This document shows positions 50,504-55,812 of a DNA stretch of 64,000 nt, piece after piece. Position 1 is the stretch's first letter. The number at the start of each line of letters is the position of its first letter. The notes beneath the pieces are model-generated. The model searched no databases. It was not told where the DNA came from and saw nothing but the letters and a program-made list of their open reading frames with translations. The translations under genes and the position numbers were made by a program. Source of the stretch: Akkermansia sp. N21116 (GTDB lineage Bacteria; Verrucomicrobiota; Verrucomicrobiia; Verrucomicrobiales; Akkermansiaceae). The stretch covers positions 1,798,001 to 1,862,000 of the forward strand of contig NZ_CP139035.1 of assembly GCF_029854705.2 (NCBI RefSeq), written 5' to 3'.

Positions 50504-50568
50504 TATTGTCGCGTTTGGGCCGAGATAGCCAGTAAAAGGAGATTTGCATCTCAGAGAAGGCCCGTAAA

Positions 50569-50618
50569 CACACAAGGACCGTTCCGACGTTTGTTGAGGA
50601 ACGGTCCTTGTGTGTTTT
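50569..50618. terminator. Terminator between the pseudopilin operon and the peptidase gene
   Basis: CACACAAGGACCGTTCC at 50569-50585 pairs with GGAACGGTCCTTGTGTG at 50598-50614, followed by TTTT. AAA precedes it, so it can act in both directions. Confidence 0.88.
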
Positions 50619-50637: not shown

Positions 50638-52101
50638 TTAGTTTGTTTGGAACTGAACCTTGTCCCGGCTTACGGGCATGCCGTGTTCGCAAAACCAGGG
50701 GAAGAGGTCCTTGCCGGCAGCAATGCTCATGATGGCGACTGCATCGTCCAGAGAATAGCCGTGTTTCAGTTTGGCAGGTACATATTTGCGCTTGGCCTGG
50801 AAGTATTTGGCGAGGAAGTCGGGATTGTCCTTGCGGAGCTGCTCAAAGACCCAGAAGGATTTACCCCAATTGACGGCTCGTTGTTGTCCCGGATCCAGTT
50901 TTGGTACACTGTCCGGTCCGTTGCCGTTCAAATCGTACAATTTCATTTCGGGATCCACTGCGAGAGCAGGCTTGATAGTGTTGGCGATGCGTTTGGCTGC
51001 TTCCTCGGGATATCCCTGATCTCCCATGACGAGGTCTCCGACATAAGTGGCAATGGGTTCATTCCAATAAGGTTCCGCATGAGGGTGTACCCAGGAGTGG
51101 ACATTTTCATGGGTAATAAATTCGATCATGCTATCTTCCCTTTCCGGGAAACCTCCCCAGAAGACGGCTAGTCCGATATGGCGACCATTGGAATACCCTC
51201 CTCCTCCCGTTGCGAGCAGGCCCACTTCGCTTGACATGCCGGGAGAGAGTGGAACACCCATGAATTTCTCAATACTCGGACGGCATCGGGTATCCATTTT
51301 GATCATAGCTTCTGCGCTGGGGGCCAGATAGTCGCTCCAGTGATAGACGAGTGAACCGACTTGCCGGGAATTGTCCGTACGGACAAGATCTCCTCCATCC
51401 ACTTTTTGATCCAGGTTGACTTGGCGGCCTGAACCCAGCCGGACGAGAAGTCCGTTGATCCATTCATTGTTGATAGATCCTTCTTTTTTCTGAGAACGTT
51501 GGCCGAAGAGAGTGGATGATGCGGCCAGGACTTTCCCATGGCCTACTTTTTTTTCTGCCAGGACGGGAACTCCATCGGCATTGACAACGAGAGGTTGCCA
51601 CTCTTCCGGCTTGCTGAATGTGAGAGTAAATCCGTTGGGTGACTCGATCTCTCCGGAAAGTCCGGAATTGGCCGTGAAACTCAGCGGTGCTTTGCCGGAG
51701 GCGCCGAATTGTACATCGAAGACGCCGGCTATGGCGTTTTGCTGTTTGCTGCCGGGGGACCCCATGATGACAAGGCCACCTCCGTTTTCGACGAATTTTT
51801 TCACGATGGCTTTGTCGTCATCGGTGTAGGGGACTTTGTCGTCACAAGCCGGGAGGATGAAGACGTTGGCATTGTCGAGTTGCAAATTTTTGAAAGATCT
51901 CCAGTTGTTGACACCGTTTTGACCGGGTTTCATGTAGTGGTGCAGAAAGGTCCCGAAACCCGTGTAGAAGGAATAGCCGTGGGTAAGGTCAACGACGACG
52001 GACAGAGGGGAAGACGATGTTCCCGTACCAGTGGTGGTAGTGCCGATTGCCGAGGTAACTGCCAGTAGGGGCAGGATGAGAGATAGAAAGAAACTTTTCA
52101 T
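50638..52101 (-). CDS. Secreted HEXXH (gluzincin-type) metallopeptidase with DUF4350-like N-terminal domain
   Basis: The 487-residue protein has a signal peptide (MKSFFLSLILPLLAVTSAIG) and a short Thr/Ser-rich linker. The N-terminal domain resembles class I amidotransferase-like DUF4350 (NVFILPACDDKVPYTDDD, then FVENGGGLVIMGS). A C-terminal peptidase domain has zinc motif HENVH at 331-335 and a downstream NEPIATY with Glu348 as the likely third ligand, the gluzincin pattern. The spacing and flanks differ from M60 enzymoglycan peptidases, so I leave the family open. In this context a host glycoprotein is a plausible substrate. AGGAG stands five bases before ATG 52101. It is divergent from the autotransporter gene. 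Confidence 0.78.
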   Translation of the reverse strand: MKSFFLSLILPLLAVTSAIGTTTTGTGTSSSPLSVVVDLTHGYSFYTGFGTFLHHYMKPGQNGVNNWRSFKNLQLDNANVFILPACDDKVPYTDDDKAIVKKFVENGGGLVIMGSPGSKQQNAIAGVFDVQFGASGKAPLSFTANSGLSGEIESPNGFTLTFSKPEEWQPLVVNADGVPVLAEKKVGHGKVLAASSTLFGQRSQKKEGSINNEWINGLLVRLGSGRQVNLDQKVDGGDLVRTDNSRQVGSLVYHWSDYLAPSAEAMIKMDTRCRPSIEKFMGVPLSPGMSSEVGLLATGGGGYSNGRHIGLAVFWGGFPEREDSMIEFITHENVHSWVHPHAEPYWNEPIATYVGDLVMGDQGYPEEAAKRIANTIKPALAVDPEMKLYDLNGNGPDSVPKLDPGQQRAVNWGKSFWVFEQLRKDNPDFLAKYFQAKRKYVPAKLKHGYSLDDAVAIMSIAAGKDLFPWFCEHGMPVSRDKVQFQTN

Positions 52102-52595: not shown

Positions 52596-55500
52596 ATGAG
52601 ACCCATTCTTCCCCTTCAATTGCGACGCTGCCTGCTGGCGAGCTTCTTCCTGTCTTTTTCTTCCTCGGGTGCGGACTATACCATAGACGCTTCTCAAGCT
52701 TCCAACCCTGGACGGAATGTCTACCAAACACTGGCGGAATTGGTTTCCTCCGGAACCTTGTCCGCAGGAGACACAGTCATTCTGAATAATGACGACTTTT
52801 CTCTTGTGTCCGGTTTGTCTGTTCCCGTCAATTTCCGTTCGAATGATCCGGAGACGCCGCGCAAGGTAGATCTGACCGGATTGGGGAATACTCCTTTGTT
52901 TAAACTATCCCGGGGTGACTATATGATCGATATGAAATCCGTTGTCTTGACCAATGCTTCGGGCAGAGTAATTTATTGTTTAGATCAATCCTCCAGTTCC
53001 GGGACTGTTTCTCTGAAAGTTTCCGACGATGTCGCATTCAAGAATAATCACAGTTCTGGCGTGAATGAGTATGGAGGAGCGATTTCCTTGTATTCATACG
53101 TAGCTTCCAAATTGGCCGTAGGTGATAATACCACGTTCGAATCGAATTACGCTACCGGTAGCGGTGGTGCCATTAGTGTTCATTCATACGGGAGTAAGGA
53201 AGCTGTGCTGACTATGGGCAACAACGCCGTTTTTACTGGCAACTATGCCGGTAGCGGTAAAGACGGAGGAGCAATTCATGTATACGGCGCTGGCGGTTCT
53301 ACCGTGAGTCTCGGGGATAATATGAAATTCGTTGGTAATTATGTTCCCAATGGTTATGGTGGATCAGGCGGTGCTATTTATGTCGTTATGCCTGACAGTA
53401 CAAAATACGGTGAGAACAGCCTTTCTTTGGGTTCCAACGCTGTGTTTACCGGGAATTATGTCAATGGTCGTTACAGTTATGGGGGGGCTATTGCAATGCA
53501 TTCTGCTTCTCGATCGGAAATCTCAACATTGGTCCTGGGAACCGGAGCCGTCTTTACCGGGAATTACATTTTTTCTACAGCTGGAGCCGGTTATGACAGC
53601 TACGGCTATGGGGGGGCGATTTATGCAGCGTCAGGAAGATTTGTGAATCTCATTGTTCAGGACGGAGCCGTCTTTACCGGCAATTATGCCTGGTCAAGAG
53701 GCGGAGCTATTTATCTGCAAAGCAGCAAGGAGGGGAGTACCAGTCAGTTGCTGGCACTGAGCCGGGATGTCATTTTCAGCGGTAACAAGATTGGAGGTAC
53801 GTTTACCCAACACTCGGATGGTACCTTTTTCGTCGAAAACGGTATTGCCAATGCGGTTCATATAAGAGGCCAACAAGACATGCAACTTGCCGCTTCTGAA
53901 GGAAGGCAGGTTCGGTTCGATGATCCTCTCGTCACTTCTGCTGCCAGTGCGGGGTCTTATCCCAATTATACAGAGCTTGAAAATATCACCCTTTCCATTA
54001 ATCAATACTCAGACACCAGCGGCTCCGCTTACCAAACAGACGGTACGGTTATTTTCAGCGGGGAACTCTATCAAGGGGACTCTTCCCATCTGGTCGCGAG
54101 CCGTTATAGTGATTTCAAGGGACAAACAACTCTCTACGGGGGGACCCTCATTTTAGAACATAACGTGGTTTTTGGTAATTCCGAGTTGCGGGACGACACA
54201 TCCATGGTCCTTAAAAACGGAACCTTGGAAATCACCGGTGGCAGTACGATCAATGCTGCTTCTTTCACCGTCTCCCATGCGGACATTGTTTTGCGTCCGG
54301 GAACCAGCGCTTTCATCAATGCTAAAAACGTGGATATGTCTCAAGGCTTTGTTTTCGACATGCAGAGGCAGTTCCAAAGCTCCGCTTCCCTGGAGTTGTC
54401 TCACGGAATGTCCATCTCGGCCTCAAATTCCTTCCTGGTGGGTGGTAACATCGGCATTTTGGATAACTACGTATCCTCCGATTACTTTTATGCGGACAAC
54501 TCTTGGGCGCAAGAGCGTGTCTTCGTTGTGCTGACGGATTCGGACAAGACTCGTGACGGTGATTTTTCCGGTACTTATTCCATGGCTACTGGTTCCGAGT
54601 ATGTGGAGAGTCCCTATACTTATACGGGAGTTTGGAGTTATCAATGGCTGGATGCGGACGGGGACGGTTTCCCGGAACAGCTTCAGCTTGTCTGGACGCC
54701 CGACCGCGTAGATCCTCCCGATCCGGTGGACCCTCCCGGTCCGGTAGATCCGGTGGAGCCTGTAGATCCAACTCCTCCCGTTCCTCCAACACCTGGCATT
54801 CGGGACATTTTGCCCGAATTGGCGGGAGGACTCGCAATGAACTCCATGTGGTCTTCCGCCTCCAACGTCCTCGGTATGTCGGGAGCTGCTCTTGAGGGCC
54901 TGGATACGCTGAGATTCACTACGGGGCCGGAAAACAACTATTGGATCAAGGGGGTGGGAGATTTTCTTTACCATGCCTCCGAAGGTGTCCGGGACGGATT
55001 CGACTACAACGGCGGAGGATATGCCGTGGGGGCGGATCGCAGAGTAGCGAAGAATACGATTCTTGGCCTGGGGTTCGGCGATCTCTATGGTAGAATGTAC
55101 AGCCGTAGCTTTGTGGGTGACATCGGCCAGCAAACCGAAATCGCCATGCTTTATGGAGGATGGAACAAAAACCTCGACAGGAACAATACTCTCATCGTGA
55201 CGGGTTCCGTAGGCTATGGCTGGACGGACAACAGAATGAATTCTTTCCATACCGGCGGATGGTCTCACGGAAAATGGACTAACCGTACTTTGGGCGCTAC
55301 CCTCAATGGGAAATGGAGCCGTCGGGTGAGTGAAGCTGTGTCGATGGATTTCATACTCGGACTGGAATACACGGACGTGACGCAGGAGTCTTTTACGGAA
55401 ACGGGGTGGGATGCTCGCCGTTTTGAAAAAGGACATTTGAAGAATTTGTCCATGCCTGTAGGAGTGGGTATGACCTGTCGTAGCGAGCTGATGGGAAGGG

Positions 55501-55757
55501 AGTGGCTTAACAGCGTGGCGGTGAGTTACCTGCCCGATGTGTACCGGGAAAATCCGAGTGCATCTGCAGAACGTCTGCTCAACGGCTATCACTGGGAAGC
55601 AAAAGGTGCGACTCCCTCCCGAAACGCCGTGAGGGTGAATGTGTCCAGTGCTCTCCAGTTGAATGATCGTTGGAGGGTGTACGCAGGTTATGAGTTTGAA
55701 GGAAGGAACAAGGCCGTGGCACACCGGTTTAACGCAGGGGTGAGTTTCTCCTATTGA
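52596..55757 (+). CDS. Autotransporter with Pmp-like GGAI/FxxN repeats
   Basis: The 1053-residue protein has a signal peptide ending near residue 30 (FLSFSSSGA). The passenger contains seven GGAI motifs, each following an FxxN motif (FKNN, FESN, FTGN, FVGN and so on) at about residues 148-396. These are the hallmarks of chlamydial polymorphic membrane proteins and predict a beta-helix. A Pro/Asp/Val linker with repeated DPPDP/DPVEP units is at about 702-735. A C-terminal autotransporter beta-barrel (about 748-1053) ends in FSY, as outer-membrane proteins do. It probably displays the passenger on the cell surface as an adhesin. ATG 52596 is chosen over the open frame to 52515. A strong terminator follows. 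Confidence 0.9.
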   Translation: MRPILPLQLRRCLLASFFLSFSSSGADYTIDASQASNPGRNVYQTLAELVSSGTLSAGDTVILNNDDFSLVSGLSVPVNFRSNDPETPRKVDLTGLGNTPLFKLSRGDYMIDMKSVVLTNASGRVIYCLDQSSSSGTVSLKVSDDVAFKNNHSSGVNEYGGAISLYSYVASKLAVGDNTTFESNYATGSGGAISVHSYGSKEAVLTMGNNAVFTGNYAGSGKDGGAIHVYGAGGSTVSLGDNMKFVGNYVPNGYGGSGGAIYVVMPDSTKYGENSLSLGSNAVFTGNYVNGRYSYGGAIAMHSASRSEISTLVLGTGAVFTGNYIFSTAGAGYDSYGYGGAIYAASGRFVNLIVQDGAVFTGNYAWSRGGAIYLQSSKEGSTSQLLALSRDVIFSGNKIGGTFTQHSDGTFFVENGIANAVHIRGQQDMQLAASEGRQVRFDDPLVTSAASAGSYPNYTELENITLSINQYSDTSGSAYQTDGTVIFSGELYQGDSSHLVASRYSDFKGQTTLYGGTLILEHNVVFGNSELRDDTSMVLKNGTLEITGGSTINAASFTVSHADIVLRPGTSAFINAKNVDMSQGFVFDMQRQFQSSASLELSHGMSISASNSFLVGGNIGILDNYVSSDYFYADNSWAQERVFVVLTDSDKTRDGDFSGTYSMATGSEYVESPYTYTGVWSYQWLDADGDGFPEQLQLVWTPDRVDPPDPVDPPGPVDPVEPVDPTPPVPPTPGIRDILPELAGGLAMNSMWSSASNVLGMSGAALEGLDTLRFTTGPENNYWIKGVGDFLYHASEGVRDGFDYNGGGYAVGADRRVAKNTILGLGFGDLYGRMYSRSFVGDIGQQTEIAMLYGGWNKNLDRNNTLIVTGSVGYGWTDNRMNSFHTGGWSHGKWTNRTLGATLNGKWSRRVSEAVSMDFILGLEYTDVTQESFTETGWDARRFEKGHLKNLSMPVGVGMTCRSELMGREWLNSVAVSYLPDVYRENPSASAERLLNGYHWEAKGATPSRNAVRVNVSSALQLNDRWRVYAGYEFEGRNKAVAHRFNAGVSFSY
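54705..54795 (+). repeat. Short repeats encoding the Pro/Asp/Val linker of the autotransporter
   Basis: The units GATCCTCCCGATCCGGTGGA and variants occur four to five times and encode a DPPDPVDPPGPVDP-type linker. Such DNA can change in copy number by slippage and so alter linker length without changing the frame when whole units of 3n are gained or lost. Confidence 0.75.
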
Positions 55758-55767
55758 CGAGAGATTG

Positions 55768-55812
55768 AAAAGCTTCCCTTTTCCTCTTTTGTAGAGGGGA
55801 AGGGAAGCTTTA
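55768..55812 (+). terminator. Rho-independent terminator of the autotransporter gene
   Basis: AAAGCTTCCCTT at 55769-55780 pairs with AAGGGAAGCTTT at 55800-55811, with inner pairing of CCTC and GAGG. Confidence 0.85.

Follow-up and report, generated by a model that had tools for sequence, protein, structure and literature searches.

The window (the whole stretch of DNA analyzed here) comprises 64,000 nucleotides of the Akkermansia sp. N21116 genome, positions 1,798,001 to 1,862,000 of a genome that forms a single contig of 3,497,179 bases. On its forward strand, positions 52596-55757 hold a gene that begins with ATG at 52596 and encodes 1053 amino acids followed by a stop codon. Based on the open reading frame, profile matches, sequence motifs, and orthologues that are 64-74% identical, we describe it as a gene for a type Va autotransporter resembling the chlamydial polymorphic membrane proteins (Pmps). 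Its neighbors are a lipoate-ligase-like gene, an opposite-strand gene for a secreted-looking protein, QueH, a CMD/cupin protein, and a LysR regulator, and it sits outside any autotransporter cluster. A terminator-like hairpin of 19 pairs lies 3' of the stop codon (55769-55811, forward strand); it comes from a consensus scan in which the total number of hairpins was not above chance. Homopolymer phase variation was also considered for this gene and set aside, as the two 7-G tracts within the coding sequence (53481 and 53610) are short and nothing speaks in its support.

The opposite-strand neighbor (50638-52101, reverse strand) encodes a secreted-looking protein with an HENVH...E motif resembling that of a zinc metallopeptidase; a profile scan matched this product to no peptidase family and to DUF7408 only below threshold. 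In three other genomes (G004, G036, and G267), a homologue of this neighbor, at 46-47%, is found downstream of the Pmp-like gene at a distance of about 7-8 kb. Between the lipoate-ligase-like and DUF7408 genes, positions 50566-50617 form an inverted repeat whose 20-bp arms match perfectly around a 12-nt loop; it is probably a two-way terminator.

The open reading frame, the profile matches, and the structural model describe the layout of a type Va autotransporter (i.e., one chain with an N-terminal passenger and a C-terminal barrel), with all segments on the forward strand. Judged by eye, residues 1-26 (MRPILPLQLRRCLLASFFLSFSSSGA; 52596-52673) have the typical look of a signal sequence, with a basic n-region, a hydrophobic core, and small residues at the end; they form a helix of low confidence in the AlphaFold2 (AF2) model. 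The passenger then runs through an N-terminal part (residues 27-147; 52674-53036), a region of seven GGAI/FxxN coils (residues 148-397; 53037-53786), and a distal passenger or stalk (residues 398-542; 53787-54221), which is conserved in the orthologues, contains a single isolated FxxN, and lacks GGA motifs. Beyond the passenger lie a segment (residues 543-702; 54222-54701) that resembles either the middle domain of chlamydial Pmps or a generic autochaperone and whose match to PF07548 is sub-threshold, and a Pro/Asp-rich linker (residues 703-734; 54702-54797), delimited by linker comparison and by alignment with the orthologues, which have a shorter one. The autotransporter beta-domain PF03797 occupies residues 783-1033 (54942-55694), scoring 101.4 bits against a cut-off of 26 (E 9.3e-29; profile positions 2-255 of 255), and the chain ends in GVSFSY.

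GGAI occurs seven times in the passenger, at residues 160, 190, 224, 258, 296, 339, and 369, and FxxN ten times, at residues 80, 148, 181, 213, 245, 284, 320, 360, 394, and 412; an extra FxxN, at residue 802, is inside the barrel. Every GGAI has an FxxN 9-19 residues ahead of it and another behind it across a gap of 17-22 residues. Among 20000 shuffles of the passenger, none contained seven GGA[ILV] (maximum, 3) or ten FxxN (maximum, 9), and the composite GGA[ILV]-x(12,23)-FxxN, observed seven times, appeared at most once. The published chlamydial coil pattern is GGA[ILV]-x(14,18)-FxxN, with a relaxed spacing of 12-23 (PMC11166332); the strict form fits 3 of the 7 coils here and the relaxed form all 7, and in the orthologues from G016 and from A. 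muciniphila CSUN-56, seven coils each match the strict form. Both Pmp-repeat profiles are matched above their cut-offs (PF02415, 36.3 bits against 20.6; TIGR01376, 36 bits against 15). It is through such family profiles and the published coil pattern, and not through Pmp sequences directly, that the chlamydial proteins enter our comparison.

For the passenger, AF2 predicts a right-handed beta-helix spanning about residues 25-488. The model was built on four similar sequences and has a mean pLDDT of 48; residues 51-250 mostly reach 70-93 (block means in the N-terminal part are mostly 70-90 from residue 51), and strands in coil order continue to about residue 490, with moderate to low pLDDT in the distal part. 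VIA-align places residues 22-424 on the surface protein SRRP of L. reuteri (5ny0; Z 25.0, 306 residues, 3.6 A) and also finds the pneumococcal adhesin PfbA (3zpp; Z 22.4); the ranking includes other proteins with this fold, namely tailspikes, lyases, and epimerases, with the polysaccharide lyases/epimerases at Z 20-23. Foldseek matched the full AF2 model to no structure at an E value of 0.001 or below, and in the PDB sequence search, phmmer found no relative and a profile search one chance-level match (2kjr, E 0.2). The full model did not resolve the barrel or most of the region past residue 616, and a separate AF2 run on residues 492-1053 (mean pLDDT 30) again failed to resolve the barrel, so the barrel assignment stands on PF03797 by itself.

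Much of what the earlier note had read from the letters is borne out by these results: the seven GGAI motifs, each after an FxxN in one passenger region, agree in position and in shuffle statistics; the C-terminal autotransporter barrel is recovered by its profile; and the Pmp-repeat and beta-helix searches that it proposed came out in its favor. Its broader claim, that the protein follows the recognized plan of chlamydial Pmps, holds in part. The barrel, the repeat motifs and profiles, and the predicted beta-helix conform to that plan, whereas the middle domain PF07548 scores 18.3 bits against a cut-off of 25. Because this hallmark falls below its cut-off, we assign the protein to the type Va autotransporters and call it Pmp-like, not a Pmp.

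The orthologues, which share the length and plan of the whole protein, come from three genomes (G004, G036, and G016). A contig search with an alignment as query returned three records, titled Akkermansia sp., A. muciniphila CSUN-56, and Akkermansiaceae (JAJQCV010000041.1), one of which is the G036 locus; a contig search with the single protein as query returned no match, and neither did a search of viral contigs. Coil number varies among close relatives, the G016 orthologue carrying one more near-identical 42-aa coil than CSUN-56. One further genome (G089) has a tandem pair whose members are 79% identical to each other. In the N21116 genome itself, the nearest paralogues of the gene are 53-55% identical to it, and it belongs to no near-identical group.

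Across 388 genomes of the phylum, a full-length profile matched 20 of the 23 members of the genus; outside the genus, it gave short coil-only matches plus one barrel-only match and one mid-passenger fragment, and no genus except Akkermansia combined coils, middle segment, and barrel. In the same sample, PF03797 is found in 119 genomes of 61 genera. TIGR01376 matched 73 of the 388 genomes and 40 of 198 genera, as well as the Escherichia coli control, and the repeat profile is therefore not specific to Chlamydia or to the PVC superphylum. Beyond Akkermansia, PF07548 gave one weak match in the 388 genomes and none in 14 controls; as the phylum sample holds no PF07548-rich group, we take Chlamydiota to lie outside the sampled genomes. 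The earlier note was right to place the host in Verrucomicrobiota (it is an Akkermansia, with orthologues in Akkermansia-titled records), and the survey that it suggested finds the architecture, among the 388 genomes, in this genus only. Its idea of a shared PVC-superphylum family is not supported, given repeat-profile matches in E. coli and many other genera and a full architecture seen only in Akkermansia. PVC-wide vertical inheritance was rejected as unsupported by the distributions of PF07548, TIGR01376, and the full-length profile.

We consider it very likely that the gene encodes a classical (type Va) autotransporter with a beta-helix passenger, in which about seven coils are stacked by the GGAI/FxxN scheme as in Pmps. 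In this model, the signal sequence would lead the protein into the periplasm, the C-terminal barrel would insert into the outer membrane, and the passenger would be threaded outward to fold outside the cell into a right-handed parallel beta-helix. We posit that this helix stands on the middle/autochaperone-like segment and a Pro-rich hinge. Pertactin and antigen 43, which are also of type Va, have the same signal, beta-helical passenger, autochaperone-like segment, and barrel; the GGA(I,L,V)/FxxN pattern is not known to characterize their coils. The motifs of chlamydial Pmps face inward (PMC11166332), and we predict that GGAI and FxxN are likewise core-facing residues of the fold, with contacts made by the variable loops between an FxxN and the next GGA. 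We speculate that the displayed passenger binds mucus, host glycans, or other bacteria and that the Akkermansia protein functions in the manner of a Pmp. The adhesin role is suggested by analogy, and lyases and epimerases share the fold.

How, then, did the likeness to Pmps arise? We give an even chance to convergence, in which GGA(I,L,V)/FxxN would be a recurrent solution to coil packing that was joined, within the genus, to an Akkermansia autotransporter barrel. The breadth of the repeat profile, with its E. coli match, is consistent with such an origin, as is the published finding that PF02415 lies mostly outside Chlamydia, in many non-chlamydial proteins (PMC11166332, 2024). So are the genomes of one family of the same phylum (f26), which are rich in Pmp repeats yet have no PF03797 barrel among the matches listed, and the paralogues in the N21116 genome, which have the same barrel type and few or no repeats over the cut-off. 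What fits convergence less well is that the coils, the full-length sub-threshold middle-domain match, and the barrel together exceed the motif alone.

Could the protein instead be truly homologous to the chlamydial Pmps, whether inherited from a common ancestor or acquired by transfer, with coils, middle domain, and barrel all kept? We regard this as a serious possibility, if one falling somewhat short of even. The two share GGA(I,L,V)/FxxN motifs in one passenger, a beta-helix, a C-terminal barrel, a similar size, and several paralogues per genome; the Akkermansia protein differs in having GGAI only, with no GGAL/V, in its Pro-rich linker ahead of the barrel, and in its middle-domain score and its looser coil spacing, as given above. 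That middle-domain match is sub-threshold by hmmscan in the protein and in all six relatives scanned (17.6-24.3 bits in those that match; two paralogues have no match), but it aligns profile positions 2-174 of 174, and a relative in G013 reaches E 3.7e-5. The genome profile search, which scores somewhat differently from hmmscan, puts three orthologues just above the cut-off (25.1-26 bits, with neighbors in the frame) and gives 33.3 bits for a protein of G013. The scarcity of PF07548 outside the genus argues for homology, whereas the lack of the architecture in the other sampled genera of the phylum argues against it. The segment may also be a generic autochaperone, considering that the Pmp middle domain has been likened to that of pertactin (PMC11166332). 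A more elaborate version would make the Akkermansia proteins real kin of the Pmps, middle domain included, that varied by coil gain and loss while the 3' ends of other autotransporters were homogenized; we regard it as doubtful. Finally, it is improbable that the passenger is a glycan-acting enzyme of the pectin-lyase-like fold and not an adhesin: Akkermansia lives on mucin, and polysaccharide lyases/epimerases do stand beside adhesins in the VIA-align ranking, but a common fold proves no function, Pfam and NCBIfam gave no lyase or glycosidase family match in the protein, and the coil number and loop length that vary among orthologues suit a scaffold more than an active site.

A Pmp-like protein in Akkermansia is already on record, given that the best match of the chlamydial coil HMM, a point in favor of homology, is the Akkermansia glycaniphila protein A0A1C7PBX1 (PMC11166332). 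By its published description, that protein shares genus, coil type, and barrel with ours, and differs in having 43 coils against about seven motif-bearing coils here. What the present analysis adds is a family of about 1050-aa Pmp-like proteins in Akkermansia. Nine barrel-domain autotransporters, of the same barrel class and genus, have been detected in the outer membrane of A. muciniphila, so outer-membrane expression of the class is documented; that paper does not report Pmp repeats in them (PMC4960237). For the Akkermansia ancestor, two autotransporters have been inferred, one with an adhesin passenger (PMC10540074). If the kinship with Pmps is real, an adhesin family would be common to a commensal of the gut and to pathogens that live obligately inside cells, whether by transfer or by patchy retention. 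As a colonizer of mucus, Akkermansia attracts wide interest, and its surface proteins are poorly known; the Pmp-like autotransporter described here is small, is conserved in several species of the genus, and offers a manageable target for adhesion tests of a GGA/FxxN beta-helix in a non-pathogen. Matches to PF02415 or TIGR01376 by themselves are no proof of kinship with Chlamydia.

The N21116 genome has 34 PF03797 barrels, against 11-20 matches, some of them partial or below cut-off, in eight other Akkermansia genomes. Scattered round its chromosome, outside the window, are giant paralogues of 3.2-4.1 kaa (L098-L102, L103-L106, L107/L108, and L110/L111), whose genes have 2.1-8.7 kb of 3' sequence in common, mostly at 97-99.95% identity (94% for L104/L106). 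L098, L101, and L102 share a 3' stretch of 5816 bp (99.95% identity), and the pairs L100/L102, L107/L108, and L110/L111 share 6996 bp (99.7%), 7947 bp (99.4%), and 8724 bp (99.8%), respectively. The 5' parts mostly differ, except in L098/L101, which are alike over 11056 bp (98.2%), nearly the whole gene. These giant autotransporters have a constant translocator and stalk and a mostly variable N-terminal part, and such near-identity at the 3' end beside unrelated 5' ends points to concerted evolution.

A related pattern is seen between two other genomes, G165 and G080 (L134-L139). By global alignment, each of three orthologous pairs shows about 92% identity in the passenger as well as over the final 960 bp, whereas within each genome, BLAST finds that the three otherwise unrelated paralogues have only their last 960-1006 bp in common, at 97.4-99.9%. 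The sequences bear the pattern of concerted evolution, which would have proceeded by gene conversion. A text search of the literature found no paper on homogenization of autotransporter 3' ends in Akkermansia, which is a weak negative. Three PF03797 barrels of the N21116 chromosome (G000:C1:1886824-1887588, 2466097-2466861, and 954347-955108) belong to open frames that span 8552, 7223, and 7840 codons, respectively, which is very large for bacterial open reading frames. Elsewhere in the phylum, in family f26, a Pmp-type repeat lies within an open frame of 13230 codons (G350:C46).
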